From assembly GCA_944989445.1 (NCBI GenBank), contig CALYLW010000067.1:603905-667904 (forward strand): a stretch of 64,000 nucleotides of DNA. The letters are read 5' to 3'. The DNA is from Ampullaceana balthica. Taxonomy: Eukaryota; Mollusca; Gastropoda; Lymnaeidae. Numbering within the stretch: the first letter of the stretch is position 1; every line of letters begins with the position of its first letter. The notes beneath the pieces are model-generated. The model was not told the origin of the DNA. It did no database searches and saw only the letters and a program-made list of their open reading frames with translations. Both the position numbers and the translations under genes were made by a program. Shown here piece after piece: positions 33,484-63,688 of the stretch.

Positions 33484-33683
33484 GATTTTATAAATAATAA
33501 GATACAAGGACTTTTTTAACGCGGAGACAGCTATTTCACCCGAAACATGTACCCATCCATTAAAAGTTCAAATTGCTCTAGCTGCCGATATGAAAGAGCT
33601 GATTGGAATGGTTTTACACTATCTACTAGCCAAACTATTCGAAGCACTTCCTTCTCTACTTTTAAGCCATCAACGCCATTTAA

Positions 33684-38009: not shown

Positions 38010-40795
38010 CACTTAACTGGAGCCCGGTTAACTCGTCAGCTCTATTAAGTCGACATTTTTTATTGGAACCGCCAAATTCTGTCTTTGTCTTTGCATTTTC
38101 TCATCGGTTAATTCGACGTCCAAATTTGCACCCCTAAAGTCCAAAAGTGGAGATATTATCCAAGACCAGGCAGGACAGCTAAAACTGTGGGTTGAGCATT
38201 ATCTGGAACTGTATTCAACAGTTACCACAGTCTCCAGGACCGCTCTAGATGACATCCCCGATATGCCTCTCATGGAAAAACTTGATGTCATGCCCACACA
38301 GAAAGAGCTGAGCAAAGCAATTGACAGTTTAGCTTGTGGAAAAGCCCCAGGGAATGATGGCATACCACCAGAAGCTCTAAAGAGTGGCAAGACAGCTTTA
38401 CTCCAACCATTGCACGAGCTTCTGTCCCTCTGCTGGGAACAGGGCTACATCACCCAAGACCTAAATGATGCAAATATAGTGACACTATATAAAAACAAGG
38501 GCGATAGAAGTGACTGCAATAACTATCGCGGCATCTCACTCCTTAGTATTGTAGGAAAGGCCTTCGCCCATGTCTTACTTACACGTTTACAGAGTCTAGC
38601 ATCCCGTGTCTATCCAGAATCTCAGTGCGGTTTCCGGGCTGGTCGGTCTACCATAGACATGGTGTTCTCCATACGGCAGCTGCAGGAAAAATGCAGAGAG
38701 CAACAAATGCCACTATACATTGCCTTTGTGGACCTTACGAAAGCCTTTGATTTCGTCAGTCGCAACGGGCTATTCCAAATCCTGGTAAAAATCGGCTGTC
38801 CCCCACACCTACTTGCCATCATCAGACAGTTCCTTGAAAATATGCAGGGCACAATGCAGTTCGATGGGGCTACGTCAGAAGCCTTTCCAGTCAGCAGCGG
38901 AGTTAAACAAGTTTGTGTACTTGCACCAACACTGTTCGCAATATTCTTCTCTGTACTGCTTCGATACGCATTCAAGGATGGCAGTGATGGAACCTGGTTA
39001 CACACCAGAGCTGATGGAGGACTTTTCAACACTGCCCGCCTTCGAGCCAAGACCAAGACGACAGATGTCCTAATTCGTGAGCTACTCTTTGCGGATGATG
39101 CGGCATTAACAGCACACACAGAAACTGGGTTGAAACAACTCGTGTCAAGCTTCTCCAATGCCTGCAAAGAATTTGGTCTGCAAATCAGCCTAAAAAGATA
39201 AACATCATGGCCCAAGACACACAACCTCCTACCATCAATATCGACAATGAAAACTTGGAGGTTTTGGACAGCTTCGCCTACTTGGGTTCCAAGGTCTCCA
39301 ATACACTGTCCATTGAAGAGGAAATAAACAGTAGAATTGGCAAGGCAGCTGCCACAATTGCTAAATTAAATAAACGGGTCTGGCAAAACACCAAGTTAAC
39401 AGAGAAAACCAAACCGTGTGTCTATAGAGCCTGCGTCATTAGTACACTGCTGTACGGGAGCGAGAGATGGACCACTTATAAATCCCAAGAGCGCAAGCTC
39501 AATAGCTTCCACTTGAGATGCCTGCGTCGCATACTTGGTATTAAATGGCAAGACAAAGTGACTAATACTGAGGTCCTAATGCGTGCCAATACCCAAAGTA
39601 TGTTCTCAATCCTTATTGAAAGACGCCTGAGATGGCTAGGGCAAGTTAAAAGAATGAGCCCTGGCCGCATCCCCAAGGACCTCCTATGTGGAGAACTGGC
39701 ATCGGGAAAGAGGAAGACAGGTTTAAAGATGTCTGCAAAATGGACATGAAAGCTGCCAGAATACGCAAAAACGACTGGGAGTGTAAGGCAGACTCTATTA
39801 CTACTGCTTTTTTCTAATTGTTTCATTCATAAGAAGTGGCCGTGTGCAAAATCCCTTTAACTATTGTTTAGAATTAATTAAATTGTGTCAGAGTTTAAGG
39901 TTCAAAAGGAGTTCCTAATTTATGTTTGCACATTTTTTAGAGAAGAGTTCGCTTTGTCATAAGTTATATATAGGTCATGATAGACAAACAAATAACGGCA
40001 ACGCCTTTGTGTAAAAAAAAACTCCAAAAACACGTGCATGTACTTTCTCATTTATTAATGATAGTGATGGGACGATACCAAAATCATAGGGTGCTTACTG
40101 TAAACAAGGCTCTCCATATTTTAAAATATATAATATAACAGACTACAGACAGTTTACCCACCCCAACTCTCAATCTCCCACACCATTGTTGTTGGTTAGT
40201 CCGATTCAAGTCATCAAGTTACCAAAGGAATTATGAGTTCATTGTAAGCCGAGGGAACGGACCCAAGGAAGATGGCTTGGAAGAGAATGGTTCGGGGACA
40301 ATGAGTGGATGTGTAGGTTACACGGGGCGGGTTATTTATTTGTGTAGCTTGTAAGTAAAGTCACGCAAGTGCCTTCCAAGGCACAGTATCGCTCAATCTG
40401 GGGAATCACCGCAAGACAGAAAAATACCATGTCACCACGGACCCGCTGCGCGCGCGTGGCATGGCGGGAAGGAGTAGATGAATTCGTTATAATTATGTAC
40501 TAGGGAAAAAACTGCGCTAACGCAATAAAGGGTTATATTTAAACTTAAACGGTCCTTAAAAACAAACAGTCTTAACAACCTTAGGAAATAGTGAAGAAAT
40601 AGGGTCCCGATATTCCGATACGATTCCGATTAATCATACCATCACTAATTAACGCACATCATGTACATAAAGAAATTTCAAGCGTAAGTTAATATTTTGC
40701 CACCATATTGGTTTTCGTTTAATTCGATCATTGGTTATCTCGACGCCATGATTCATACCCCAGCGCCGTCGACTTAACCGGGTTCGACTGTAATT
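38010..40795. mobile_element. Possible TIR element split by a LINE
   Basis: The left TCTAGAACCCACTTAAC...CCCGGTTAACTCG (about 37998-38036) and right CGACTTAACCGGGTTCGACTG (about 40769-40789) could be the inverted ends of one pogo/Tigger-like element. Both are followed inward by GGTTA..TCGA.G repeats. The LINE at 38126-39780 lies between them. Between 39785 and 40770 I see no gene. Confidence 0.3.
38126..39780 (+). mobile_element. 5'-truncated non-LTR retrotransposon (reverse transcriptase)
   Basis: The frame opens at about 38126 inside the RT, with no endonuclease domain. It runs through CGKAPGNDGIPPEAL, NNYRGISLLSI, CGFRAGRSTID and the catalytic FADDAAL box (about 39088). A one-base loss near 39193-39200 puts the downstream part in another frame (39207-39749), which has the usual C-terminal RRLRWLGQVKRM motif. 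It is dead by truncation and frameshift. The exact clade (RTE-like or other) is uncertain. Confidence 0.85.
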
Positions 40796-46601: not shown

Positions 46602-47125
46602 TTATTCACAAAAAACTGTTTTATGCACTGCTAACCAATGACGTTTAAGATGATGCTTATGTGTAAACTTGGCACTGCACAATTCACAAGTGAATCTACG
46701 ACCAGAGTGTGCCTCTACATGTTTTTGCAAGCCACTGAGTGAAAAAAATCCCATTAAACATGTTTTGCAAGTGTATGGGAGGTATTTAGCCTGCCTGTGT
46801 TCAGAATTCATATGTTTCTGGTAAAATATTCTGGATTCAATTAACATATCACAGAGGGGACACTTCATAGCAGTGTTAGTGTTAGGTTCTGACATTTTTT
46901 TGCCCTGAAGGCTAGAAACTCCATCCAGCATTTGAATCATGGCATCATACTGCCCAGGGGAGGCCATATCCATGCAAGGTCTAGAAGTGGCAGAAACGCT
47001 ATGTAATCCAGAATAGGATGGAGAGAACATCTCCAGATAGGGCTGTGTTTCTGGCTCTAACAGATGTTGGGATTGGCCTCCCACATGGACCAAATCTTTA
47101 GCAAATTTCCTGAGGCCCTTTCTTC
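46602..47125 (-). CDS. Zinc-finger terminal exon 18 (most distal, 3 fingers)
   Basis: Acceptor TTGTTTCAG|GA; 173 aa. A long linker of 87 residues contains many Ser, Pro and Met. Fingers start at Cys88 (CPLC, FYQKHMN), then CKTC with GFFSLSGL, then CELC with KHHLKRH. The protein stops at KTVFCE, so the fourth finger present in the other exons is cut off at its first Cys. Its closest relatives by motif are exons 2 and 3 at the other end of the array. Confidence 0.85.
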
Positions 47126-47650
47126 CTGAAACAATATATAATATAATATACACAAGAGAATTACTTTTTTTTTAAAAAGGCACACAAATCTGTTCCTTAC
47201 TAACAAGTCTTGTAATATACGATTCATACAATACAAATAAAATGAATTACATAAGACGGATATCTTCCAAAAATTAGCTTTAGAGACATTCAAAAACAAC
47301 CCACTTAGTTTTTTTAATTTATCAATTAATCAATTTGCTGGGCAGATGTTTTCCATTTTTTTTTAAAGCTCTAACTAGTCTAACTCTAAACAGGCAAGAA
47401 TTTTTTTATAATTTTAGAGATATTTAGGGGGGCATTAGTAAAAAAACACCCCATCTTAGCTATTAGTGCAAAGATTTAAATGAAATAAAATGCAAAATGA
47501 ACAGAAATAAATTCTCCATTGATTATTTATCCGTTTATTCTTCTTTTCTCATGTCTTGTTTTTTATTACTCCATGTGTTCACAAAAAACAAGTTTTAAAA
47601 AGTTATAAAAAATTCCAAACAAGAACTATTTACAAGCACAAATATCCTCT
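47126..47650. other. Gap between exon 18 and the piggyBac ORF
   Basis: AT-rich. A short TAGGGGGGC / ACACCCC pair at about 47425-47452 is the only thing resembling an inverted end, and it is too close together to be the termini of the transposase gene. Confidence 0.4.
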
Positions 47651-49258
47651 TTACTGGCTGCCAAGGTGTTGGGGAAAGCAAGTGTCCTTGCAGTAGTGGA
47701 TCTGGCACACATCACACCCATATGAGCTCTCAACAGCTCTTCCAGCAGGTGTACGTCGTTTTGCCAATTTGCAGCTGACGCAGGCCTTTTTGCGCCCTTG
47801 AAACTTCACAAGTTTGTGGGTGCTCACATTTTCAACTGCCACTGTCTTGCTTTTCCTCTTAGAGGCTGCCTTCTTTCTGCAAACGTAGCCTGCAATCAGC
47901 TGGTCTGAGAGGTCAAGGCGGTAGTCCAAGAGGGTGTACTGCTTGCTGGGCTTCGGTACGCACTTGTCAAACAAAATGAAGGCGTTGTTGACGGTGCTGT
48001 CGAAAACAAAGCTCAGCAAGTACCTCCAGTACTTTCTGCATTTCTTGATGGTACTGTAGTATTGCATAATTTGTTCTGCTTTACGCACACCTCTCATGCT
48101 CTTGTTGTACAGCTTGACAACGGCAGGACAAGGTACAGCAACTTTGGTGCGCCGTCGGCGATCCCAGCGTATCACTCGGCCCATGGTGTGTGAGGTGTTG
48201 CTTGACAAGAGGACAACATCTCTCTTGTCATGCCACACAGTGGCAATGAGTCCATCCTTCTGGTAGACCTCATGCTCCCCTTGCTTCAGCTTCCTTTTAT
48301 TTTTGAATGCTTCTGGAAGGTGTTTTCTGTTTGCTCGCACGGTTGAAGCAGCATATGTCTTTTCACGAAGAAGGCCGACAAGAAGAGCAACCGATGAAAA
48401 ATAATTGTCAAAGTACAGGTGGTGGTATTTGCCAAAGAAGGGTGAAGCCAGTTTCATCACCACATCATGGCCTAAGCCCTGATGAGTGTCATCACCTCTT
48501 TTGCCACAGTACACATCAAACTGGAGCAAGTAGCCAGTAGCGGATTCGTAGGCACAGCAGATTTTCATACCCCTCATGACTGGTTTTACTGGCACGAACT
48601 GTTTCAGAGTACTTCTGTTTTTGAAAGGGACCATTGCCTCATCAATGCTGATGTCTCTCATTGGCTTGTAGCAGGCAAGAAAGGTTCTGTTAGCCATATC
48701 CAGAAGTGGTCTGATCTTGGAAAGCCTGTCATTGCCTGCTGGTTGTGTGTCGTCCACAACGTGAAGATACTCCCCAAGCTTTCTGAATCGTTTCAGTGAC
48801 ATCACCTTGTTTATTCCGGGTACACCAAGCATGTCATCTGATGACCAGTACATCTCTTCCCTCGGTAGTTTGTGTATTCCTATGAGGATAAGCAATCCAA
48901 AGTAGGCCTTGATTTCTGGTACACTTGTTTCGTGCCACTCACTGTCCCCATATTTCTTCTCCGCAGTCTTCTGCATTGCATATTCGTTCGTTTGGTCCAC
49001 TATTGTCTTGAATATTTCTTCTTCAAACAACTGATAGAAATAAGAGATCTGCCGGTCATCATTTACATTGACATTTGCTCCAGTTTCTTGCTGAAAATGT
49101 TCGATTGGCAATGGTGTTGTACTTGTGCTCCACTCACTTTCATCCCCAAAAGCCTCATCCTCCTCCTCTTCACTTTCCTGCCAGTCTGAAAGATCGGATG
49201 TATGCGCGCTACTGACACTAATGTCACTACCGATCTCTTCCTCCGACTCAAAGTCCAT
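47651..49258 (-). CDS. piggyBac-derived transposase (PGBD-like), intact ORF, 535 aa
   Basis: The first in-frame ATG is at 49258 (a TTG 12 codons upstream is ignored), giving a single-exon 535-aa protein. The N-terminus is acidic (DWQESEEEEDEAFGDE), followed by the DDE_Tnp_1_7 core. The first catalytic Asp is in SIDEAMVPFK (Asp206) and the second in LYFDNYFSS (Asp284). Where active piggyBacs have GVDxxDQ this protein has GVRKAEQ (Arg392, Glu395), so both C-terminal acidic residues are changed. A C-terminal Cys/His domain (CVSC ... CDVCQIHYCKDTCF) is intact. No TTAA/CCC termini are evident nearby. It lies between zinc-finger exons 17 and 18, same strand. It is either a recently inactivated insertion or a domesticated gene. 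Confidence 0.88.
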   Translation of the reverse strand: MDFESEEEIGSDISVSSAHTSDLSDWQESEEEEDEAFGDESEWSTSTTPLPIEHFQQETGANVNVNDDRQISYFYQLFEEEIFKTIVDQTNEYAMQKTAEKKYGDSEWHETSVPEIKAYFGLLILIGIHKLPREEMYWSSDDMLGVPGINKVMSLKRFRKLGEYLHVVDDTQPAGNDRLSKIRPLLDMANRTFLACYKPMRDISIDEAMVPFKNRSTLKQFVPVKPVMRGMKICCAYESATGYLLQFDVYCGKRGDDTHQGLGHDVVMKLASPFFGKYHHLYFDNYFSSVALLVGLLREKTYAASTVRANRKHLPEAFKNKRKLKQGEHEVYQKDGLIATVWHDKRDVVLLSSNTSHTMGRVIRWDRRRRTKVAVPCPAVVKLYNKSMRGVRKAEQIMQYYSTIKKCRKYWRYLLSFVFDSTVNNAFILFDKCVPKPSKQYTLLDYRLDLSDQLIAGYVCRKKAASKRKSKTVAVENVSTHKLVKFQGRKKACVSCKLAKRRTPAGRAVESSYGCDVCQIHYCKDTCFPQHLGSQ

Positions 49259-49651
49259 TTCTTTCACCTCAATGTGTTGATGGTTTACTTGCAAATAAAG
49301 ACATGGAGAAAGTGGTCATTGGTAATAAATAATACATTTTATGTAATGTAAGTGAAAACATTCTGGTAATAAAGCATTAAAAATTAATTTTTGAACAATG
49401 ATAATTCTGTAACATTAGCCATGCCTTAAATAAACATGTCTAAAATAAAATCATCCTAAAGCAAAGAGATTAAATAAATTGGCAAACACAAATGACTAAA
49501 TTCTAAAAATGCCAACATTCGAAACATGAGATACCCGATACAAAAGGAATTAGCAACTTCAGGTTAGTATTTTTAAAGTCATGAGCATAATATTAAAACC
49601 AAATAGATCTAGATAAAACTGCAGTAGAATCACTTTTTAAAATTCGCCAAC
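49259..49651. other. 5' flank of the piggyBac ORF
   Basis: AT-rich sequence with no piggyBac-type CCCTAG terminus or TTAA pair. It may hold the promoter if the ORF is expressed on its own. Confidence 0.35.
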
Positions 49652-50118
49652 TTATTTTCTGCATGTACTGAGATGAAATGTGAATATATCTTGCTCATAT
49701 GAATGAAATGTTACTAAGCAAACAGGACAGAGTAACATTTTGTGCACATTTGTAACATGGTCTTTAAGATGGTGCTTGTGCTTGAACTTAAAATCACAAA
49801 TAGGGCATACAAAATTCCTTCCCTTGTGAGCCTCCATGTGAAAACCAAGGCCTCCTCTGCTTCGAAATATTTTACCACAAATTGTGCAACTTAACTGTAG
49901 GTGGGCATGAGACAAATGCCATTGATAAGATTCTGGAGTGTAAAATTCCTGTGTGCACTGCGAACATCTTATCCTGTTAGCAGTCTCAGAAGTTGCATGT
50001 ATATTCATTGGAGGAAATGGAAGGTTTTGTGAAGATGTTGCCTGAAACTTTGACCTTATAGGGAGTTGAGGGTAACGATGATTATTTCTGTATGCTTGCC
50101 GGTCAACAGGAAAAAAGT
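49652..50118 (-). CDS. Zinc-finger terminal exon 17
   Basis: Acceptor TGTATTTCAG|AC; 154 aa. Fingers start at Cys51 (CSQC, an unusual YTPESYQWH helix region), then CTICGKIFRSRGGLGFH, then CPICDFKFKHKHHLKDH. The final C2HC has a 14-residue loop (CPVC...HLSTC), longer than the usual 12. The KHHLK helix links it with exons 1, 3 and 18. The gap to exon 16 is 222 bp. Confidence 0.87.
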
Positions 50119-50340
50119 CTGAAATACAAAAAAAGGCCCTGAATACCAATAAGCCTAAAAACCTAATGAGTGATTAAATTTATCACTTAAAATTGTGCAC
50201 AGGGTAAAATAAACTAAAGATTCATCTTACAAATAAGCAGAAGCAAGTCCCATGGAACATTCTAACTATGTTTAAATTGAGCCTTTAACCAAGAGACGAA
50301 GACTCGTTTTAGTGCTCATAACAAAGCAAAATATTACCAC

Positions 50341-50804
50341 CTAGCTGCAGTGTAATACATGCTGATGAAATTCTAAGCCCAAGTTTAATGCCTTTGAGCA
50401 GACAGGACACAAGGCCAATTTATGAATATTTTTAAGATGGTTTTTTAGGTGTCCCTTTTGTTTGAACTTGAAATCACATATTGGACACATAAACTTTCTC
50501 CCCTCATGGGCTTGCACATGGTTCATTAGACCTGAAGATGTCAGAAAACCTTTTCCACAAAGTTCACACCAAAAAGGCATTTCATTTTTGTGATACTGTG
50601 CTATGTGTTGTTTTATTTTAATGCTGCTCTGTGGGATAACTTCTCTGCAGTATAAACATTTTCCATATTGAGCCAAAGGGAATGGACTCTGTTTTCCATC
50701 AAAATGTTTAGGTTGTTTATGAGGGTAAAGATGATGTTGGTCGGTAGACGAGCTTTGATGCCCATCATCATAAATGTAAGAATGATGTTCCTGCAATTCA
50801 GCTT
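50341..50804 (-). CDS. Zinc-finger terminal exon 16
   Basis: Acceptor TTTTATTTCAG|AA; 153 aa. The linker is rich in His, Tyr and Gln. Fingers start at Cys49 (CLYC, with one extra residue before the first His), then CELCGKGFLTSSGL, then CPICDFKFKQKGHLKNH. It closes with CPVC...HVLHC. The third finger is almost the same as that of exon 17 up to FKFK, suggesting shared ancestry. Confidence 0.87.
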
Positions 50805-50998
50805 CTGAAATAAAAAAAAAGGAAGTCTGATTTTCGCTTTCCAGTCCCTATATTCACATCAATAGTCACTATGTGCAACTTTTCATTTGAAAAGTAGTGG
50901 ATTCAATTTTAAACCCACATATCATGTACTGGAATTGTACTTTCTCTTACAATAACTTTTATGAAAAATACTTAATACACAGTTTACCAACTAACATA

Positions 50999-51459
50999 TC
51001 AATTCCCATTTTCATTTCTACTTATTCCCCGACAGTGAAGTACATGGTAATTAAATTCTTGATCCAATGAGAATATTTGTAAGCAAGTCATGCACTGCGA
51101 TTTCTTATGCACATTATTGAGGTGTCGTTTAACCTTTCCTTTCTGGGATAGTTTTGCCCCACAAATTGGGCATGGAAATGTTTTGCCTTCATGAGCCTGC
51201 TTGTGAAGATCAAGCCCAAGGCGAGATTGGTAGCCCTTCCCACAAAGGGAGCAGATGAATGGCAACTGATGGCCATGATTTCGTACAAGATGTGTGGTGA
51301 GCTCACGCCTATTCATAAATATCTCTGGGCAATATTGACAATGTGTGTAAGATTGGGACATCATCCTCAGTCTAAAACTATTCGTTCTATGAGAAGGTGT
51401 AGAAAAATTATCTTGTGTGGTGCTAGAGCTTGAATGGTGCAACTTTACAACATTGTCCT
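50999..51459 (-). CDS. Zinc-finger terminal exon 15
   Basis: Acceptor TTTATTTCAG|AG; 152 aa. Fingers start at Cys40 (CQYCPEIFMNRRELTTH), then CSLCGKGYQSRLGLDLH, then CPICGAKLSQKGKVKRH. It closes with CMTC...HVLHC and a short RGISRNENGN tail after the last finger, a longer tail than in most exons. Confidence 0.87.
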
Positions 51460-51713
51460 CTGAAATAAAATAAATGGTCTCAAGATAATTTAATAAACTT
51501 TTTAAAGTTTCCATAGAAGAATGTTAAGAACAGTATGTGTCCTTTGCTCAACATAAATTTTATGATTGAAACTGAAAGAACTGAAGGCAGTATGTTGTAA
51601 AAAATAATAATAAATTAAATCATCGAAAAAACAAGTTGTTGGTCAGAATTTTTTTTTAATGTGTAACAATTCTAATGAAACCACATAACATATTTTAAAC
51701 AAAATAAAATCAT

Positions 51714-52132
51714 TTACATTGATGGCCCTTGACAATGTAAAACATGTTTATCATAATCTTGGCCCACTCTGAACACAGCAGAGCATGTGAGACACTGAGA
51801 CATGCCATGAACCCCGCGAAGGTGCAGTTTAATTGTTCCTTTTTGAGTAAACTTTGAATCACAAATGGGACAGAGATATGATTTCCCTTTGTGTCCTCCC
51901 ATGTGAAGGTTCAGTCCAGTGGAAGTCAGATAGCCTTTCCCACAAAATGAGCAAACATAAGGGTTTTGTATGCCATGAGTATGAAACATGTGTTTATTTA
52001 GTACAAAATAATCCTCGAAAATTATTCTACAGTGCTGACACTGTAAATTAGCTGTTGCACTTTTCACTCTTCTGTTTGCTCTTGGGTGTTGTCGTGCTGG
52101 AGAAAATGATTTTGCAATGGAAAATTTCTCAC
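51714..52132 (-). CDS. Zinc-finger terminal exon 14
   Basis: Acceptor TTTTAATTTCAG|GT; 138 aa, the shortest exon product, with a basic linker (ARQHPRANRRVK). Fingers start at Cys31 (CQHC), then CSFCGKGYLTSTGLNLH, then CPICDSKFTQKGTIKLH, and CLTC...HVLHC. A candidate small exon (52311-52223) ends 90 bp upstream in the matching phase and would add Gly at the junction. Confidence 0.87.
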
Positions 52133-52222
52133 CTGAAATTAAAAGATTATAAAAATTCACTCATTTGCTAAACTTTAATAGTCATTATAAATATACACTG
52201 GGCATGGAACATAATTACATAC

Positions 52223-52311
52223 CATCAACAAGTGAAGGGGAAAATAATGCACAAGATTCTATCAATTCTCTTAAAAATGAGTTGGCATCCATAGAAAACT
52301 GCTGACAGCAC
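52223..52311 (-). CDS. Candidate short exon inside the array, phase-1 donor
   Basis: An open segment reads QQFSMDANSFLRELIES, then CALFSPSLVD, and ends GATG|GTATGT. The final G is the first base of a codon, exactly what the zinc-finger exons need. The upstream boundary may be TTAAG|G at 52311, or the exon may be a first exon starting at ATG 52292. The 90-bp intron to exon 14 is short but possible. It has no known domain. It could mark an internal promoter or a private exon of isoform 14. Confidence 0.45.
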
Positions 52312-52911
52312 CTTAACATTAAAAAAAATACAAATAACATATTGATCTTTATCAAAACAGTCTCACACAATAACAATGAAAATCAAAGCTTATTTTAAAA
52401 ACTATACCTGAATTTTTTTTTCAGATATAGGTAATAAAGACTTAATACAAAGTACAACTCTTGGTTTTTATTATTATTATTTTTTTTATAATGGTATTTC
52501 AAATGTTTTTGTTCAGTAGCTTTGATGAACATAGCTCAATTCTAAAAAACAAACAAAAACTTTTAAAGAAAACAAAATCTAGAATATAATATTACAGCGC
52601 ACATTATGATAATAAAACTATTATAAATTAACCAAATTGAATCATGTGAAAATTATAAGTAATATTTAAGATAATCTAAAAAGCCCCATAATTTATAACC
52701 TATGTCAAGAATAAAAAATAAATAATTACAATCTTTTTATTGATAAACTACCTTACAATTATATTTAGAGATTTTTATTAAAGTTAAAACAGCAGCAGCA
52801 ATGATAAAAAAAATATTTAAAAAATGCAGGTAATAGGTATCAACATTCACTTATTTATCAACATAAGAATGTGGCTTTAAAAAGTACAAAGATACAATTT
52901 AGGAACAATAT
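52312..52911. other. AT-rich gap between exons 13 and 14
   Basis: About 600 bp of AT-rich sequence with poly-T and poly-A runs. No finger remnants are seen. If 52292 is a first exon, its promoter would be here. Confidence 0.35.
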
Positions 52912-53342
52912 TTAGGAACCACAATATAAATTATGTTCAGCAAGAGAGGGACCAATTTTGATTATCAGTGAGCAAGAAGGGCATTGTGCCGACTGATGGA
53001 CAAACTTGAGATGCCGTTTCAACGTAAAATTGCGAGAGAATTTGTTATCACAAACAGGACAGGCAACTGTTTTCCCTTGATGCATATCCATATGATTACT
53101 TAATCCAGCCTGGCTCTGATATCCTCTCTTACAAATAGTACATGTGTACGGCATAGATTCACCATGCAATTTTGATATGTGAGCTTTCAGGCAATCTGAT
53201 GGGAAAGCTTGAAAACAAATTGGGCATGTTTCACATACAGGGAACGACCCAACCTCTCGACTTCCAAAGCTTCCTTGTTTAGAATGACTAACTGTTCTCC
53301 AATTATGCAAGACATGTTGTTGTCGTAGAGGCACAGGCACAT
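52912..53342 (-). CDS. Zinc-finger terminal exon 13
   Basis: Acceptor TTTGCTTTCAG|AT; 142 aa. Fingers start at Cys39 (CPICFQAFPSDCLKAH), where the loop is one residue shorter than usual, then CTICKRGYQSQAGLSNH, then CPVCDNKFSRNFTLKRH, and CPSC...HNLYC. Its helices and short first finger group it with exons 10-12. An open frame continues upstream of the acceptor to 53520, but that part overlaps the end of exon 12 and is intronic here. Confidence 0.86.
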
Positions 53343-53428
53343 CTGAAAGCAAAGAAGTGTTTATATTCATTTTTTTCTGTTTAATGGCTCTAACTGCATC
53401 AAAATGAGCACATTCCACTAGCATTACA

Positions 53429-53922
53429 TCATTTGATACAGTACAAAAGGTGCCGGTTGTAAACTGGACCAGTTTCAAACATATCTGAACATTTTGGACA
53501 TTGTGCACAGTTGTGAACAAATTTCATGTGTCTTTTTAAATGATAATTCCTAAAAAATCTTTTTTCACACACTGGACAGAGAGCATTTTTTCCTTTATGA
53601 AGATCCATGTGACTAATTAAGCCAGTAATGCTTTTGTAGCCACGTTCACATATATCGCATGAAAAAGGCATGGTCTTGCCATGGAGTTCTGAAATATGAG
53701 CTTTTAAATGTCTCTCAGGGATCATTTGTGAACAATTGGGACAAGAAATATTTTCTGATTCAGAATAGCTGCTTTTCATCCTGATGTTATGAGATGAATA
53801 TGTACTGCTTTTATCATTGGTGAAATTGCTGGCCAAATTATGGCTATTTGTTGCTTGCATTGTGGATTCACTTCTGGCACCTGGATACATATAGTGGCTT
53901 TGTTGTCTTTGTCCAAATTCAC
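53429..53922 (-). CDS. Zinc-finger terminal exon 12
   Basis: Acceptor TTTGATTTCAG|GT; 163 aa. The linker has MYPGARSESTMQAT and YSSHN, shared with exon 11. Fingers start at Cys60 (CPNCSQMIPERHLKAH), then CDICERGYKSITGLISH (identical in exon 11), then CPVCEKRFFRNYHLKRH, and CPKC...HLLYC. Its 5' half matches exon 11 while its 3' half does not. Confidence 0.87.
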
Positions 53923-54005
53923 CTGAAATCAAAGAGTAATGGATGGAGGTATATAAGGACTACTTTATACTTTGTAAGGGACATTTATAAAAATTATTTA
54001 TCAAT

Positions 54006-54496
54006 CTATTTTTTACAATAAATTAGATGCAAATTGTATTCATGGCCAGCTTTAAAAGTAGAGTGGCAGTTGGGACATAGTGATGATTTGTGAACAAGTC
54101 TCATGTGTCGATTCATTGTGAAACTTCGAGAAAACTTTTTATCACAAATCAGACATTTGAATAATTTTCCTCTATGTAGATCCATGTGACTGATCAAGCC
54201 AGTAATACTTTTGTAACCTCGTTCACAAATGTCACAAGAGAAAGGCATGGTCTTTCCATGAAGTTCTGAAATATGAGCTTTTAAGTATCTGTTTGGAATC
54301 ATCTTTAGACAATGGGGACAAAGAACATCTGCTTCAGAGTTGCCGGACAGCATCCTGTCATTGTGAGATGAGTATGTATTGGTTTTAAAAGAGTTGAAAT
54401 TGGATGTCCCATTATTGCTTAAAGTTGCTTGCATTGTCGAGTCACTTCTGGAATCAGGGTACATATGGTGGCTTTCATGTTTATGTCCAAATCCAC
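54006..54496 (-). CDS. Zinc-finger terminal exon 11 (hybrid of 10 and 12)
   Basis: Acceptor TCTGATTTCAG|GT; 162 aa. The linker and first two fingers (from Cys59) follow exon 12, including ISELHGKTMPFSCDICERGY. After MDLHRGK the sequence follows exon 10: FSRSFTMNRHMRLVHKSS and HLIYCKK up to the stop. The upstream intron resembles that of exon 12, and the sequence at the stop resembles exon 10. See the finding on unequal crossing-over. Confidence 0.88.
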
Positions 54497-55124
54497 CTGA
54501 AATCAGAGTAATTAAGGAAGTATTTAAGGACTATATACATTCTACGAGGCATAATACACATACAAGTATATTAACCAGGCACGATTTTTCAAATAACTTG
54601 AATTTTATTCATTTCCAGGTTTGTATGTAAGAACAATTGCACTGGAAATATTAATATTACATGAGATTATGTCAATGTATCCATTCCGAGTTTCAGAAAA
54701 GAAATTACATCAATTTGAAGGACATCCGTGAGACTAAAATTGATCCATGTGTTTAAAATTGACACCTAACAAAATTATTGGTGCCTGCTTAAAATGCTGG
54801 ATGAGAAAAGGATTATTTTCCATCAAGCCCTAGAAGCTCATGTTAAAATAAAGTGCAACATATTTTAACTGGTATGAACCCGAGTTGACAGATGTCTTTC
54901 ATCCTGCTTTAATTTTATGAGATAAGTTTGTTTTTTGGTTTTTATTAGATAAAATTAGATATCTTCATATGGCTAAGATTAGGTTGCGGGTCGAATCCCT
55001 TGTAGGCCAGAATAACTTGACTTGAATTTTTCCAATCCCTTTTTCAGTTAGACCAAGATTGTGATCATAACTACATCCCATAAGGCAATATAGGCATAAA
55101 AAACGTGTATCACTCTGGCACAAA

Positions 55125-55603
55125 CTATTTTTTACAATAGATGAGATGCAGATTGTATTCAGGACCAGTCTTGTAAGTAGAGTGGCAGTTAGGGCATTGT
55201 GATGATTTGTGAACAAGTCTCATATGTCGATTCATAGTGAAGCTTCGAGAAAATTTATTATCACAAATGGGGCATTTTATAAATTTCCCTTGGTGGAGAT
55301 CCATGTGACGAGAAAGTCCTAGGCTTGTTTCATAGCCTCTACTACACAGAGAGCAGACAAAAGGCATTGCAGATCCATGATTATGTGAAATATGAACACG
55401 AAGGTTTCCTTTGAAAAATGACTGGAAGCAATAAGGGCAAGTTACAGTAGCAAATTGTGATTGGCCAAAATCTTGATGATCTTCAGCTAGCTGGACTTTA
55501 ACACCTTTAGATGATGTTGGCCTGCCTGGAGCAGGCAGTTCATGTCCGTATGGACCAGCAAAACGTCCTAGGTCATAACGGAAAACTTTCCTTGATGTGG
55601 CAC
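55125..55603 (-). CDS. Zinc-finger terminal exon 10
   Basis: Acceptor TTTTGATTTCAG|GT; 158 aa with a Gly/Pro-rich linker unlike its neighbours. Fingers start at Cys55 (CPYCFQSFFKGNLRVH), then CSLCSRGYETSLGLSRH, then CPICDNKFSRSFTMNRH, and CPNC...HLIYC. The last two fingers are nearly identical to those of exon 11. The gap to exon 11 is about 630 bp without features. Confidence 0.88.
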
Positions 55604-55931
55604 CTGAAATCAAAAGAATGTTGAAATTCAGTGGTCCACTTCAGTCCTCAGAATACACTCATGGTAGATAAAACCAAATATTTAGTTTTTGTCAGCAGAT
55701 TCAAAGGAAGCCTTTAAAATCACGTATGCAATACTAAAATTTTAAGGAAATTTGATGTAAGGATCCAACTAAAGCAAAAGCATTAGGTTAATAATGAAAT
55801 GTATTCATCTTCAAAACATTAAAACTTCTTAGAAAATTTAACAGGTAACATGCAAAAATGAAATTGTTTAATTGTTGGGTTTTTTTGGGGGGGGGTGGAA
55901 GTAACACTGATGATTATAAATCTTCATTGTG

Positions 55932-56359
55932 TCAAGAGATGCCAGCCATCCCAAAGTTGCCACATTTGAGCACATGTTGGTTGAATTCAAAACCCAGCTT
56001 AAATAGCATTGAGCAAGTTGTACATTGCTCTAAACCATGAACAGTTCTTAAATGAGGCTTGATGGTGAATTTTTGAGTAAACCTGGAATCGCATATAGGA
56101 CATGTGAAAGTTTTTCCACGGTGAGATTGCATGTGACGAGCTAGTCCTGATGGGCTGAGATAGCCTCGTCCACATAATGAACATGAAAAGGGCATCTGGT
56201 CATTGTGGAGGTTTGTCATGTGTGATCGAAAATATGACATGTCTGGGAAAGTCTCTTTACAGAATGGGCAATAAGTGGATCCTGGTGACTGATTGAAAGT
56301 GGCTCCAAAACTAGTGTTGGAGAATCTCTTTTGTTTCCGTCTTTGTTGACAATGCATAT
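55932..56359 (-). CDS. Zinc-finger terminal exon 9
   Basis: Acceptor TTTCTTTCAG|AT; 141 aa with a short linker. Fingers start at Cys30 (CPFCKETFPDMSYFRSH), then CSLCGRGYLSPSGLARH, then CPICDSRFTQKFTIKPH, and CTTC...HVLKC. Fingers 2 and 3 are close to those of exon 8, suggesting a local duplication. Confidence 0.87.
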
Positions 56360-56613
56360 CTGAAAGAAATAAAATCCAGAATCTTCCTGTGGTACTCTAA
56401 ATTCTAAACAGCGTGTCATTTTTTAATTTAATATAAAAATAAGTTTACTGATTCAAAGCAACACATTAATTATGAGTTCACACAATTTGTAATTGAAATG
56501 AACTTAAATAATGTCAGACAACATTATTTACTAAATCACACACCAAGCCTCATACTATTCAAAGCACAATATTCAAATAATTATCCAAATATGCATGATT
56601 ACATAAGAACACA

Positions 56614-57131
56614 TTAAAACCAATTCTTAATCTGATTATTGCCTTGACTTGAATTTCCACAATTTAACACATGTTGATCAAATTCATGTCCAATTTTCAG
56701 CACATTAGAGCAATTCATACATTTAGCCAACTTGTGGACAGCACGCAAATGAGCTTTAATGGAGAATTTTTGTGTAAATTTTACACTGCAAACAGGACAC
56801 ATAAATGTTTTCCCTTTATGAGACTGCATATGGTGAGCCAAGCCCCGAGGTGTTTGATAACCTCTGCCACACAAAGTACATGATAAAGGTGCACTATTTG
56901 GATGATATTTAAAAATGTGTTCTTTGAGGTAGGCTGAACCTCTTAAAACATGAGAACAAACTGGGCATGATAAATCTGTTGAAGCTAAACAGTCAAATTT
57001 TGTAAGCTGAGTTCTTTGTGTTCCAGATAGATTATATCCTGCCTGGTTTGAGGGATATTGAACCGGTGCAACAGAACTTGAAAAATAACCCCTTTGATGA
57101 TTTTGAAATAAGTGACTTGATTCCATTACCT
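56614..57131 (-). CDS. Zinc-finger terminal exon 8
   Basis: Acceptor TTATCTTTCAG|AG; 171 aa. The linker is rich in aromatic residues and Gln. Fingers start at Cys55 (CPVCSHVLRGSAYLKEH), then CTLCGRGYQTPRGLAHH, then CPVCSVKFTQKFSIKAH, and CMNC...HVLNC, with an 11-residue tail. Upstream lies the largest gap in the proximal half, 57132-58151, which is AT-rich and empty. Confidence 0.87.
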
Positions 57132-58151
57132 CTGAAAGATAAATTATTTTTTGTTAAAATAGTTTTGCTACTTCACAAAACCATTTTTCAAGGCAAAAAA
57201 TCAATTAAAAAATCATGGATTTTATGGTGAAAATATCACACTGCAACACGTTTAATTTGTTTTTGAATATATCTACTTTAGGTTTTAAATCAATTGTTGA
57301 ACAAAATTCAGAGTGGACATTGAATTTGTTTTACCATTATTTTTGAAATTATTTTTATTGTTTTGTATTTACAGTCTTAAATTTAATTAACAAATTTTGT
57401 CTATATAAAAAAACCAACTATTTGTTGTTTAAGAAATTCTTTCCTTTATTTCAAAAAAAGTTAATTTGAAAAATGAAGAAAGGGGAAGACGGGCACATCA
57501 TCTAAAAATAAATAAATAAAAATATAATAAAATTTGACAAAAAACAAAATATCAATACCATTTCAATATTGTTCATTTTTCCTTTTTAATTTGTTTATAT
57601 TATGTACATACAATTTTCTATTTAAAAAAAACATAACATCATTAACAAATCTTTCATGTTTAAAAAGTAAATATTACATACATAGTTGCACTATTTATGG
57701 ATAGCTATAAAGTAAAAGAGAGATTGGGGAAGAATAACAGCCATTATTCTTTACCTTTAAGGTTGTACAGAAATATAATCAATAAGGTAAACATGAAAAT
57801 GTTGCAACAAAACATGTTTTGGTGTGCTATTTATTTTCAGGCTACCACCTATCTTGTTTAGCAAATTTATTTCTACAAAGCCTGATTGTCATCTCAACAA
57901 AAATTATTATAAAATTATCCCCCAAAAATATAATTTTTGTAATAGTTATGGATATGTTAAAGTGTATATTCAATTTACAGCAGATTTTAAAAAAGGTAAA
58001 GATCTTTAAAAGGTAAAGATCTTTAAAAAGTTAATCCAGGAAACCAAACAAAAAAAATTTGTTACACAAAGAAATATTTATGTAATTAATGAGTTTATAT
58101 TAATTTCTCATCACATATAAAAAGAAATAAAACTTAACTAAATGAAAATAA
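57132..58151. other. Empty AT-rich gap in the array
   Basis: About 1 kb between exons 7 and 8 without finger remnants. A direct duplication of AAAGGTAAAGATCTTTAAAA lies at about 57993-58029. Confidence 0.45.
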
Positions 58152-58597
58152 TCAAGTTTTGCATCTAACAACATGCTGTGTATAGTCTTGCCCAAGTTTG
58201 AATATTCCACTACATGATGGACATTTGGCTGACTTATGAAGCTTTTTAACATGCATTTTTAATGAGGAGTCCCTTGTAAAACTCTGATCGCAAACTGTAC
58301 AGTTGAAAGTTTTCCCAATATGCCTCTGCATATGATAATGTAATCCCATAATAGACTGGTATCCTTTGCCACACAATTTGCATTTGAATTGCACATGTTG
58401 ACTAGATAAGTGATTTTTAAGGCTAAAGTTGTCCAAGAAAATTTCATGGCAGTGTTGACACTGATATTCTGAGGCCAGAGGAAAGTTCTTGTGATGTGAA
58501 GAATTTAGACCTGACGAAGGGTGTAACCTTGAATAGGGAGCGGATGCTCGGATACGTTGCAATGTGTTGACTTCTTGCTTATTGGCGTAAGTGGGGC
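58152..58597 (-). CDS. Zinc-finger terminal exon 7
   Basis: Acceptor AATCTGTTTCAG|GC; 147 aa. Fingers start at Cys46 (CQHCHEIFLDNFSLKNH), then CKLCGKGYQSIMGLHYH, then CTVCDQSFTRDSSLKMH, and CPSC...HVVRC. The linker between fingers 1 and 2 is about five residues shorter than in other exons (QHVQFKC). It is most similar to exon 6. Confidence 0.87.
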
Positions 58598-58695
58598 CTG
58601 AAACAGATTAAATATCATATTTCTAGTTTGAGTCATAACTTTTTCCATCATTAGAGTAACTCCAAACCAATACATGATAATATTTCCCAGAAACG

Positions 58696-59174
58696 TTAAT
58701 TGAAGCCACAGTTTAAGACATGACTTTCATAGTCAACACCAAGAGTAAAAATTCCAGAACATGAGGAACATTTTGCAGAATTATGAACATTTCTCAAGTG
58801 CATCTTAAGAGAGAACTTGCGAGTCAGTTTACAATCACATATTGGACAAGGAAAGATTTGTCCCTGATGGGCTTGCATGTGGTACCGAAGCCCCATAGAT
58901 GTCTGATATCCTTTGCCACAAAGTGAACATGTGTAATGCATTAAGTGCCCATGAAAGCGTGAAATGTGACTTTTTAAACAAAAATCATCAAGCAAAAGCT
59001 CTGAACAATGTGGGCAAGGAATAAGTTGGCCCACTTTGGGGTTTCCTTGATATACACTTGACCCTCTTCTGTTACAGAAAGTATTAGATTCATGGTTAGA
59101 AGGCGTTGAAAAAGAGTCTCTATGCTGCATACTGGGACGTTGTCTACGTCCTCGTCCTCTATTAATTTTCAACC
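58696..59174 (-). CDS. Zinc-finger terminal exon 6
   Basis: Acceptor TTGTTTTATTTCAG|GG; 158 aa. The linker begins with a very basic stretch (KINRGRGRRQR) that could act as a nuclear signal. Fingers start at Cys53 (CPHCSELLLDDFCLKSH), then CSLCGKGYQTSMGLRYH, then CPICDCKLTRKFSLKMH, and CSSC...HVLNC. Confidence 0.87.
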
Positions 59175-59640
59175 CTGAAATAAAACAAATGTAAGAAATC
59201 TATTTCATTTCGATAGTAACAATGGCAGACACTACCTTCCCCTTAAAAAAAAATCATTAGTGAATTCATATAATCAAAATGAAAAATGTACAGTTCCAAG
59301 GTTTTTATAAATCTTAAGACAGCGCATTATATTTATTAGATGCAGATTATTAAAAGCAATCATCAATAGTATAATTATGATTATATATCTTTTATAAAAA
59401 AGGAACGACTAAGAATATTCTTGTCACTTTGCTACCATTTCAGGTTTTTAAAACAATGAATACAAGCCACATTTGTAAACATAAATATTTTAATTTTGAA
59501 GGAAATAACTGTCCTTTAAAAAGATAAAACGCCTGTTGCTATTACCATTCAAAATATAATACATCAAGATCAGTTTAACAAAATATTGCTAAAATCTAGA
59601 ACAAGATTAAAAAATAAGTACACTGATCCTCTTTTCTTAT

Positions 59641-60134
59641 CTAAAACTGTTCTTTTTTATTCCAATTTACATCTTGCACAGAGCACTGTTCTACATGGCT
59701 GTTGTAATCTTGAAATTTGACCAACAGGGAACATTTCGGACACTGCCCCGCATTGTGAACACCCATCAAATGGGACTTTATTGTGCCTTTACGAGTAAAT
59801 TTTGCATCACATATAGGACAAAGGAAAGATTTCTTTTCATGTGATGCTTGGATATGATAGTACAACCCAGAAGGTGTGAGATAGCCCTTCCCACATCTAG
59901 GACAAACATGAGGCATTATAACGCCATGGGTTTCTCGTAAATGTCTTTGTAGACTAAACCCATCAGGTAGAACTTCTGGACAATGAGTACAGCAGCAGTG
60001 GGTTTCAGCTGAAGTTGGGGTTGAATGTGTATCAACTCCAATGTTGTAATCAAACCTCTGCGGCCAATTCAACCCTGAAGCCGTTATCATCCTTTCAACG
60101 TTAGATGACTTTCTTCTTTTTCGAAAATTGGCTT
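59641..60134 (-). CDS. Zinc-finger terminal exon 5
   Basis: Acceptor TTCTTTTGTTTCAG|AA; 163 aa. A basic start (FRKRRK) is followed by fingers from Cys48 (CTHCPEVLPDGFSLQRH), CPRCGKGYLTPSGLYYH with a longer His spacing (HIQASH), CPICDAKFTRKGTIKSH, and CPKC...HVEQC with an 11-residue loop. A polar tail follows the last Cys. Confidence 0.87.
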
Positions 60135-60287
60135 CTGAAACAAAAGAAATTTATCAGAATTCATTTGACTCGTCGATCGTTTCAGTACTGATTTGTCAGA
60201 AAGATCTGGCTGTTTAAAAAAACAAAATATTTCCTTCGACAAACAAAAGAAAATGTATATAATATTGAATTTATTTTAAACAACCAG

Positions 60288-60778
60288 TTACTTCTTTTTG
60301 CAGTATAAAACATGAAATTCAAATTCTTGGCCAAGTTTTAAAATGGATGAACACTGACTGCATTGAGCGGACATGTGAATTCCTTTTAAGTGAGTTTTCA
60401 TGGTGCTTTTCTGAGTGAATTTTGAATCACAAATCGGACACATGAATGTTTTTCCTTCATGTAGACGTGTATGATGATGAAGTCCTGAGATGCTTGCATA
60501 GCCTTTGCCACAAAGAGAGCACGTAAAAGGCATGGTATCTCCATGATACTGCGATAAGTGTGTTCTCATTGCAGATTGATCTGGAAGTATTTCTGGACAT
60601 AAAACACATGGGTAGGCTTGATAAGTAGAATTCCCCAAGAAGCTCTGATGAACATTTGGAATAAAAGATGGCTTTGATTCCACAGGTGCATTGTGATTTC
60701 TTTTTAGTCTGGAAACCATAACTTTATTAACTCTTCCTGGCAATCTCTGAAGTCTGTGACCTCTGTTATAACTACTTT
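60288..60778 (-). CDS. Zinc-finger terminal exon 4
   Basis: Acceptor TTTTATTTTTCAG|AA; 162 aa. Fingers start at Cys57 (CVLCPEILPDQSAMRTH), then CSLCGKGYASISGLHHH, then CPICDSKFTQKSTMKTH, and CSQC...HVLYC. A minus-strand AATAAA lies about 20 bp beyond the stop (near 60268), a plausible private polyadenylation signal. Confidence 0.87.
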
Positions 60779-61207
60779 CTGAAAAATAAAATGTGGTCTT
60801 GTTTTCAACAACAAACAAACAAAACAAAAAAAACAAACAACTATTTTATACATTAAAGTTTATGATAGGCTTCAAACACGATTTGAAAATAAATACTATA
60901 TAGCAATATACACATCTCAAATAAAAAATGTAGATGACAGTTCATGAAAACAATGTTAGTGTACTTTATTTAATGACTCATTTATTATAATGTAAAAGAA
61001 CAATTTAGTAACTAATTCTTGAATAAAAAATCCTAAACTACATGACAATAAAGACTAAACGCTTTTAATTTTAACATGTCTATATTTCAAAAGAAAAAAA
61101 ATAAACTAATAACCTCATTTTAAAACATTAAACTTTAGTCACTTTCACAAATAAAAATGAGTATTGTTATTCTTATTTACTGATAAGAAAAAAAATGAAA
61201 AATTACT

Positions 61208-61728
61208 TTATGCTAAACCCTGTCCACAATTTATGACGTGAGAATTAAAATCTGGGCCAAAAGAAAACATTCCTAAACATATACGACACTCTTTCAATCC
61301 ATGAACTCCTTCAGTGTGGCGTTTTAGATGATGCTTATGTTGGAACTTTGCATCACAAACAGCACAAATAAACTGGCGACCTTTATGTGCCTCCATATGA
61401 TGTCTGAGTCCAGTTAGTGAAAAGAAGCCTTTCTGACACATAGAGCAGCTGAAGGGTAGAGCCCCTTCTTCTCTGTGGTTACCATTAAGATGTTTTTGAT
61501 ACAATATGCGTGAATGGAATACCTCAGGACAGTAGGAACACTGAAATACTTCTGTATTGAAAGATTGGAATCCTGTGACATCCGTGGGTTGAACATTGTC
61601 TCCTAAAAACGACCTTGAAACATTTTTTGTGGCAGATGACTGTGAAGACTGCCAAGAATGAAAAGCATTTCGCTGCCAATTAGAATGCCGATGTAATTGC
61701 TTAGCTCGAGGTATGGCCGCATAATCTC
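61208..61728 (-). CDS. Zinc-finger terminal exon 3
   Basis: Acceptor GCTTTGTTTCAG|GA; 172 aa. The exon is open from the acceptor, 74 codons upstream of the first usable in-frame start-like codon, which shows it is not an independent gene start. Fingers start at Cys63 (CSYCPEVFHSRILYQKH), then CSMCQKGFFSLTGLRHH, then CAVCDAKFQHKHHLKRH, and CRIC...HVINC. It is very close in pattern to exon 18. Confidence 0.87.
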
Positions 61729-61979
61729 CTGAAACAAAGCAATCGCATCTTTAATAGCATTTGATGTGTTGAATGACATTTTTAATAAGGAAAACATGCT
61801 TTTAAAAATCTGTGCAATGTGCAACATAAATGCTGCAGATGGAACAAGTTATGGAAAAATGAAAATCGGCACAGATGATTACAAATATTGTTACTTTCAA
61901 TATGTCATTCCCAAAAGTACAGCACACTATTTTACGAGGATGAAACCCTAATTTCTATCAAGTATACATTTGGTATCTG

Positions 61980-62503
61980 CTACTTTTTAGTTGAACATGA
62001 AATAATATGTTGGTTAAATTCTTGGCCTTGCTTGAAGTAAGATTCACAGTATCTACACTCCTTGAGAAAGTGTGTTCCTTCCATGTGTCTCCTCATAATA
62101 GTCTTGTGTTTCAGCTTCGCATCACAAACAAAACATGTAAACTTTTGTCCCCCATGTGTTTCTTGGTGATATCGCAAACCACTGTTCGTAAAGAACCCAT
62201 GTTGGCATTCATCACAATTAAATGGAAGCATTTTGGCTTCTTTGTGATATTCATTCATGTGCTTTTGATACATTGATGCATTTCCCAATGGTTGTCTGCA
62301 TATAGGACACGTGTCTGCAATGTGGGCAGTAGTTGATGAATTATCAATTGAATATGACCCAGGTGAATTCAAATGTGCATTGAAGCGCGTTTCTGTTATA
62401 TGGGGCATTAAAATAGTTTCTTTAATGTTTGAATGCCAGTCAACTTTACTATGAGTCCTCCTTTTTCTGGAGAGGGCTTGAGTTTTGTCAACACACAAGC
62501 TGT
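61980..62503 (-). CDS. Zinc-finger terminal exon 2
   Basis: Acceptor TCTTGTATTTCAG|AC; 173 aa. Basic SRKRRTHSK lies near the start. Fingers start at Cys65 (CPICRQPLGNASMYQKH), then CDECQHGFFTNSGLRYH, then CFVCDAKLKHKTIMRRH, and CRYC...HIISC. The YQKHMN pattern groups it with exons 3 and 18. Confidence 0.87.
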
Positions 62504-63170
62504 CTGAAATACAAGATACCATATCTCAAAGGAACATCATAAATTTTTAATGCTTAAAAATATTTAAAATTATAATTCATACATAGAAATTAAGTTTTGG
62601 CTATTTTTATAAAATGAACAAAGAGATGTTTCCATTTGTCCTGAATAATAATTACATTCCTGGTAATTTATGCACCAAGTAATTTTATACAACGAAAAAA
62701 AAATAATACAGATACTAAAAAAACAATAAGTTAGCTTTTACTTGCAAAAACTAAAATGTAGGCATACAAGTGAAATGTCGAAATATGAAAGTAACATTTC
62801 CTGCAATAATTTTTTTTTAAATTCTTATTATACATCAGATGAAGGTTTAAAAAGTTTTTTAAAAATTGGAATGAGCTTGATAATTAAAGTTAATTAGAAC
62901 ATACTTTCAAAAGCTTTTGGTTTAAACATATTTTCTAAATATCAGTGCTGTTTCAAAAGTTAGCTCTTTTTATCATTGTGAGTTTTCTTTTTCAATTATT
63001 CACTACATTCTATGGTTTTAGTCAAACATTAAAAAAGACAGACAAATGTAGATGATATTTAAGCTCTCATGGGGTGCCATGAAATTTCTGGTGAACATGA
63101 CAAACAAACAAGTACTACTCAACCTAAAATACAAATTTGGTTTTATTTCACATTAGAATGTACCTGATTG
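62504..63170. other. AT-rich gap between exons 1 and 2
   Basis: No finger remnant or further exon is visible. A minus-strand AATAAA about 30 bp past the exon 1 stop (near 63142) could serve exon 1. Confidence 0.4.
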
Positions 63171-63688
63171 TCAACCTATACAATATGCAGAATGATCAGA
63201 ATAACTTTCAACTGGAAAAAGACGAAAACATTTAATGCAACGCATCAGTTTATGTATGTTTTTCTCATGGCGTTTTAAATGATGTTTATGAAAGAACTTA
63301 AATCCACATATTTCACAAATATGCTTTCTTCCCACAAGATGTGTTTGCTTATGCAGTCTCATTGCACAGGTAGAGAAATATCCTTGGCCACATATAGAAC
63401 AAGAAAAAGGCAATGCATGAGCATCTTTATGAAACAAGTTCATGTGACGCTGCAACAGGGAAATATTTCCCAGGATCTCTCCACATAAATTACACTTGTA
63501 ATGCCAAGTACCATCAGCAAGCTCCATTCCAGAGTATGCTTGTGAACTATTTTGAACATGCCGAGAGGCATCCCATGTTTCATTTGACACAACAGTAGAT
63601 CTTTCTTTAGATCCCAGAAAATTTACTCGATCAACCATTGAAGCTCTATTATCCATTGGCACTATGGCGTTTCTATTAACATTCCAGT
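63171..63688 (-). CDS. Zinc-finger terminal exon 1 (most proximal seen)
   Basis: Acceptor GTCTTTTTATTTCAG|AC; 171 aa. Fingers start at Cys65 (CNLCGEILGNISLLQRH), then CSICGQGYFSTCAMRLH, where the usual GL before the helix is AM, then CEICGFKFFHKHHLKRH, and CIKC...HSAYC with an 11-residue loop. No exon is recognised between this acceptor and the window edge, so more proximal exons and the shared 5' part must lie beyond 64000. Confidence 0.86.

Follow-up and report, generated by a model that had tools for sequence, protein, structure and literature searches.

Organization of the zinc-finger exon array

We analyzed a 64,000-nucleotide stretch of the genome of Ampullaceana balthica, a gastropod close to Lymnaea stagnalis (the window, G000:C67:603905-667904; the own-genome assembly searched comprised 1.10 Gb), which carries an array of zinc-finger exons. 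All 18 open reading frames (ORFs) of the array were located on the minus strand between positions 46602 and 63710 and encoded one zinc-finger module each. A profile built from them recovered exactly these 18 among the 2049 stop-to-stop ORFs of at least 20 amino acids in the whole window. Judged from this anatomy and from a constant exon found beside the window, the locus is very likely a single gene, whose shared exon would be joined to a single zinc-finger end at a time, out of no fewer than 19.

A sequence-only reading of the window had described 18 same-strand exons with a TTTCAG-type acceptor, a start at codon position 2, their own stop codons and a common finger module with diverged contact regions, and had noted no Met at a shared place. 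The exons were found at the places it gave, and each was closed by its own stop. TTTCAG preceded the fingers and the first exon base was codon position 2 in 18 of 18 cases; the chance of equal phase across 18 exons is ~8e-9. The module, three C2H2 fingers followed by one C2HC finger, was present in all 18 with diverged contacts, apart from the fourth finger (C2HC), which is missing in E1. Thirteen columns were invariant across the exons: twelve are the zinc ligands in fingers 1 to 3, and the thirteenth is an additional Cys. A Met preceded finger 1 in 12 of the 18 exons, and no such position was common to all of them.

The phase was also recovered with a blind rule that chooses among acceptors by best pyrimidine tract: 14 of the 18 window exons came out in phase 1, and 233 finger-less control ORFs were distributed 95, 92 and 46 over the three phases (95 being the phase of the exons). 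The first exon base was A or G in every window exon.

The constant exon lies 6 kb to the right of the window, upstream of the array on its strand, and shares 92% identity with Lymnaea stagnalis P0038 across 392 residues. Its donor, C/GTAAGTATA (the slash marks the exon boundary), is of phase 1 and matches 19 end exons, as the sequence-only reading had anticipated in proposing one upstream phase-1 donor and at least 18 alternative ends. The 19th end exon sits between the window and the constant exon and is orthologous to Physella X14 (69%). The proposed array end at 63688 is correct as the acceptor of the rightmost window exon, and one more exon lies beyond it (Table 1). By its sequence, the locus comprises a 392-codon exon, a phase-1 donor and 19 phase-matched ends on the same strand with their own stops, so that array, donor and phase fit together with no additional assumption.

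Table 1. Features of the locus (positions are those of the window, continued to the right where indicated)
Feature	Position	Strand	Remarks
E1, 3'-most, three C2H2 fingers	46602..47125	-	acceptor/phase/stop; 87% over 174 amino acids to the Lymnaea stagnalis P0038 end
Presumed piggyBac-type transposase ORF, between E1 and E2, outside the system	47651..49315	-	Pfam DDE_Tnp_1_7, E 3.2e-84
E2	49652..50118	-	acceptor/phase/stop; 65% to P0012
E3	50341..50804	-	acceptor/phase/stop; 72% to P0001
E4	50999..51459	-	acceptor/phase/stop
E5	51714..52132	-	acceptor/phase/stop
E6	52912..53342	-	acceptor/phase/stop
E7	53429..53922	-	acceptor/phase/stop; 52% to Physella isoform X7 P0187
E8, duplicate of E7	54006..54496	-	acceptor/phase/stop
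E9	55125..55603	-	acceptor/phase/stop; 60% to Physella X10 P0189
E10	55932..56359	-	acceptor/phase/stop; 71% to P0002
E11	56614..57131	-	acceptor/phase/stop
E12	58152..58597	-	acceptor/phase/stop
E13	58696..59174	-	acceptor/phase/stop
E14	59641..60134	-	acceptor/phase/stop
E15	60288..60778	-	acceptor/phase/stop; 54% to Physella X8 P0076
E16	61208..61728	-	acceptor/phase/stop; 63% to P0003
E17	61980..62503	-	acceptor/phase/stop; 64% to Physella X1 P0186
E18	63171..63688	-	acceptor/phase/stop; 52% to Physella X2 P0192, 94% to P0009
19th terminal exon, outside the window	G000:C67:668193-668605 (continued numbering 64289-64701)	-	phase 1
Constant exon, right of the window	G000:C67:673926-675102 (continued numbering 70022-71198)	-	392 codons + 1 base from ATG

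Isoform models in related snails

The isoforms of the relatives are database gene models. In Aplysia, at least 27 isoforms (numbered up to X28) shared an identical 391-residue start, and in Biomphalaria at least 21 (numbered up to X25) shared one of 366 residues, further UniRef and second-assembly entries being excluded from this count. Two Physella genes had at least six isoforms with an identical start of 380 residues (numbers up to X14) and at least 14 with one of 365 residues (numbers up to X25). All 68 ends of these grouped isoforms differed from one another. Models from Aplysia, Biomphalaria and Physella thus also show the structure of a constant part plus one end. One of the 14 Physella isoforms, P0206, had a short end without fingers. 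The same constant part was joined to a basic, finger-less end without a Pfam match in P0204 and P0205, and P0252, a Joint Genome Institute (JGI) record, carried a FLYWCH match after the constant domain that stayed below threshold (22.5 bits against a cut-off of 23.6).

The junction residues were consistent between the species. Joining the window exons to the donor C predicted R in eight, H in five and Q in five of them, and the isoform ends of the relatives opened with H, Q or R in 68 of 68 cases, as follows from a split codon C/AN or C/GN. Among 120 listed proteins with the constant domain, 91 of the 96 that were not read-throughs had H, Q or R at the junction; one of the five exceptions was cut at that point. 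The remaining 24 were short read-throughs with R-K or R-E past the junction, which is expected from C/GTAAGT or C/GTGAGT.

A search with the 18 exons gave 29 matches, including exon-sized relatives in Lymnaea, Candidula, Arion, Plakobranchus and Bulinus. A chimeric query, assembled from six finger regions, reached longer proteins and gave 780 matches, and we examined ten of the best 120, chosen for snail names or high local identity. Six of the ten contained the constant part (P0038, P0076, P0092, P0098, P0104 and P0144), of which P0092 seems to hold parts of two ends. Several ends ran together without the constant part in P0030, P0031 and P0039, and P0090 had one end without it. With residues 1-90 of P0038 as the query, 142 proteins were found, and every named one among the best 120 was from a gastropod; we take these carriers to be heterobranchs. 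A pattern gave 43 matching stretches in viral contigs, none of them encoding a relative.

A family of loci in the genome

The constant domain was found at seven places in the A. balthica genome (47-87% to the first copy), distributed over contigs C67, C124, C170 and C822. In the fetched stretches, six of the seven copies were followed by same-strand ORFs with at least two finger patterns: 19 in C67 (with the window), 25 in C124, 35 in C170, and 21, 2 and 2 in C822 (near 284 kb, at 131 kb and at 238 kb, respectively). The total of 104, which includes the window, may be an overcount, as a few ORFs overlap in C124, C170 and C822, or an undercount, as C822 and C170 were fetched in part. Behind the seventh copy (at 113 kb in C822), no multi-finger ORF was found as far as 105 kb. 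The fetched stretches contained 95 multi-finger ORFs on the strand of the constant exon versus none on the opposite strand; eight ORFs with a single finger pattern occurred on the latter, as chance may give. The blind acceptor rule gave phase 1 for 23 of 25 ORFs in C124, 29 of 35 in C170 and 21 of 21 near 284 kb in C822. Four copies (C67, C124, C170 and C822 near 284 kb) had a phase-1 donor, and no recognizable donor was found at the other three.

Individual arrays could be matched to the genes of relatives. When compared with the 104 ORFs, the ends of Physella LOC131940994 matched best in C67 (6 of 6), the finger-bearing ends of LOC131937624 in C124 (13 of 13), the Biomphalaria ends in C124 (21 of 21), and the Aplysia ends in C67 (8) and C124 (19). 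The constant region of C67 was nearest to P0038 and then P0076, and that of C124 to P0155 (90%) and then P0206. The finger ORFs at C170 and C822 mainly had two fingers (C2H2/C2HC). At G000:C170:82632-113967, 35 ORFs with two to three fingers, mostly C2H2-C2HC or C2HC-C2H2, lie downstream of one constant-domain copy; their second half (RHKWQCE plus a C2H2 finger) resembles, in our estimation, the ends of lola.

On balance, it seems rather probable that gastropods possess a family of transcription factors with swappable ends, independent of lola and with a new N-terminal domain (in this genome, seven copies of the domain, with at least 104 ends in six arrays), and regulated by the choice of terminal exon.

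The constant region

The sequence-only reading had suggested a BTB or another constant domain upstream of the array. A constant domain is indeed present, but it is not a BTB domain: Pfam detected no BTB in the seven genomic constant exons or in ten proteins of relatives, no genome-wide search for BTB having been made. No Pfam match above the cut-off was obtained for the constant region in the seven genomic copies and the relatives scanned; at E values up to 1, the genomic copies gave one match, to SPX, with an E of 0.05, far below the cut-off. NOZZLE was rejected as the constant domain, since its match (E 0.00067) was below the cut-off and covered the middle of P0258 only. Ficolins were likewise rejected: in a fold search they reached a best E of 0.016 with nine close relatives, and no match up to an E of 10 with seven divergent copies.

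With the seven divergent copies, AlphaFold predicted one long helix and three strands for the 84-residue N-terminal domain (mean predicted local distance difference test, pLDDT, 80; predicted template modelling score, pTM, 0.61). Among 40 relatives, the first 90 residues were strongly conserved, the variable middle contained an invariant K-x-E (K189 and E191, in the setting IKKE), and the constant part ended in a conserved tail, FEVIEIDDEDED. We take the K-x-E in IKKE to resemble a SUMO site and the tail presumably to resemble a SUMO-interaction motif.

DNA-contact residues and evolution of the ends

The contact residues of C2H2 fingers are helix positions -1, 2, 3 and 6. Taken together, those of fingers 2 and 3 were distinct in all 18 exons. 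We compared them in ten ortholog pairs, each an exon and a relative whose best window match is that exon; the pairs were hand-picked, E5-P0006 (47%) was left out, and for E7 the window duplicate E8 outscores the relative. Contacts were kept at 75 of 80 positions versus 134 of 160 for other positions. The 153 paralog pairs kept 400 of 1224 contacts versus 1102 of 2448 other positions. These values suggest that the contacts diverge most between ends, yet are kept within one end. Replication with strict reciprocal pairs had a mixed outcome. An excess of kept contacts was seen for window-Physella (30/32 versus 53/64), Physella-Aplysia (20/24 versus 29/48) and Biomphalaria-Aplysia (28/32 versus 39/64); the other two comparisons are considered below.

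The nonsynonymous (dN) and synonymous (dS) divergences were 0.269 and 0.849 for E7-E8. For E8-E9, the full-length values were 0.506 and 1.648, and those for the last 72 codons were 0.142 and 1.30; saturation was reached in the four remaining exon pairs tried. A lineage-specific expansion was rejected, as the window exons did not cluster as a single group in a tree built from 95 ends. This tree showed 15 label changes compared to a shuffled mean of 16.6 (77 of 500 shuffles were as low), with few columns and with 37 of 92 inner branches open. The scatter of the window exons suggests that most end types are older than the species.

Other features of the window

The transposase ORF within the array is open over 554 amino acids and lies on the strand of the finger exons; no clear terminal repeats were found around it in an inverted-repeat scan of the interval. 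Farther from the array, a reverse-transcriptase ORF (RVT_1) with a further open frame behind it was located at 38032-39746 (+), a retroelement remnant or copy. An alpha/beta hydrolase exon (Pfam Hydrolase_4), which we take to resemble ABHD17, was located at 32770-33567 (-). Frames resembling a rhodopsin-type receptor were recognized by eye at 16591-18423 (+); two had no Pfam match at E 0.001.

Interpretation and alternative explanations

One gene would in this way provide one protein body with many different DNA-binding ends. Each transcript in A. balthica would carry one end, the choice of which may be regulated by cell or stage, and each end would bind a separate DNA site. The constant part may serve as a common effector or a platform for assembly, brought to different genes by each end, and would probably be repressive and SUMO-linked.

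Several observations weigh against this interpretation. The evidence for a constant part plus one end consists of genome anatomy and database gene models of relatives. The ends had been called mutually exclusive, which fits the 68 gene-grouped isoform models, but at least five other snail models join more than one end (P0030, P0031, P0039, P0092 and P0250), so end-to-end splicing may occur or these models may be wrong. Four of the 17 inter-exon gaps (after E3, E4, E8 and E13) have no AATAAA or ATTAAA, by counts made without a shuffle control, and E1 has no poly(A) signal in the 400 bases after its stop, with one overlapping the stop. The contact excess in the ten ortholog pairs is modest (Fisher P 0.04), and no excess was seen for Physella-Biomphalaria (contacts 52/72 versus others 107/144) or window-Biomphalaria (13/24 versus 27/48). 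The SUMO and repressor roles are putative, being read from motif resemblance.

The array bears clear marks of tandem duplication, with E7, E8 and E9 as related copies, and 12 exons have a Met before the fingers. Both would suit a set of 18-19 separate zinc-finger genes in tandem, every one with a promoter and a 5' exon to itself, like the usual C2H2 clusters. However, no Met is common to all 18, and a splice acceptor in one phase opens every exon. Inter-exon gaps of 83-98 bases at three places (down to 83 and 86 bases from a stop to the next acceptor) leave little room for separate promoters. Orthologous exons are joined to one constant exon in the models of relatives, and a constant exon with a fitting donor stands upstream in the own genome. 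We regard separate genes as very improbable, and give equally little credence to the idea that most end exons are decaying duplicates, with few isoforms made. The missing fourth finger of E1 would agree with decay, but all 18 frames are open with intact acceptors, fingers 1 to 3 keep all twelve Cys/His ligands without variation, and dN/dS for E7-E8 is well below 1. Furthermore, contact residues are kept in orthologous ends, and six orthologues of the window locus are among the Physella isoform models.

A third possibility is a true lola or mod(mdg4) orthologue, in which the BTB exon would lie further upstream and the exon found here would be a middle exon. The design and the finger types (C2H2 and C2HC) are alike, and the exon profile also picks up P0022, a lola fragment from a bee, with an E of 8.5e-15. 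However, the best own-genome match of this fragment is modest (62 bits, 33%), the models from several snail species begin at the Met of the constant exon and hold no BTB, and the seven genomic copies are without BTB. In addition, TTK-type BTB domains are reported only in arthropod transcription factors in the available text of PMC11426971. Such orthology appears highly unlikely, if by a hair less so than the other two explanations. The single gene with a constant exon and alternative ends remains our preferred reading.

Comparison with known systems

The sequence-only reading had likened the locus to lola and mod(mdg4), as an independent or very ancient equivalent outside insects. A terminal-exon array in a mollusc is borne out; independent invention is the better reading of its origin, and an ancestry shared with lola is unsupported because the constant exon has no BTB. 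In the available text on Drosophila, lola has about 20 ends on one BTB region, joined by cis- and trans-splicing (PMC1947980), the ends being mostly C2H2 or C2HC fingers (PMC1947980, PMC11426971), and mod(mdg4) joins a common region to at least 30 alternative ends (PMC11426971). The snail array shares with lola one constant region, a phase-matched donor and many terminal exons, here deduced from anatomy and the gene models of relatives, as well as C2H2 or C2HC finger ends. The common region differs, being BTB in lola and another domain without a Pfam match in the snail. Furthermore, lola is also trans-spliced, whereas all snail exons are on one strand, so that cis-splicing suffices.

In mod(mdg4), BTB is combined with mostly FLYWCH ends, as opposed to the C2H2 modules in all 18 snail exons; no FLYWCH was found in the ten window ORFs scanned with Pfam (nine finger exons and the transposase). 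The end exons of mod(mdg4) lie on both strands, whereas those of the snail lie on one strand (18 of 18 in the window, 95 of 95 in the fetched stretches). The database names of the orthologues (myoneurin, ZBTB17-like, zinc finger 236 and Gfi-1-like) reflect a likeness in C2H2 fingers and probably stem from generic finger similarity. None of the scanned relatives has a BTB or other named N-terminal domain, and names such as ZBTB17-like or myoneurin mislead for these genes. In the literature searched (titles and the starts of abstracts), we found no account of the locus or of such arrays in molluscs.

If the reading as a gastropod family is true, its arrays would be among the largest known sets of DNA-binding isoforms for such a small number of genes, and might form a code of cell or neuron identity. 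Their role in neuron identity could be examined in Aplysia and Lymnaea, whose nervous systems are well mapped. The finger specificities could be compared inside one gene, between orthologs and paralogs, and the locus exposes a conserved protein domain that the searched copy of Pfam does not hold. Insects diversify transcription factors greatly through alternative terminal exons attached to a BTB body, and the same design on an unrelated snail body would be a clean case of convergent gene architecture. By its sequence, the snail system appears to work like lola, but is not lola.

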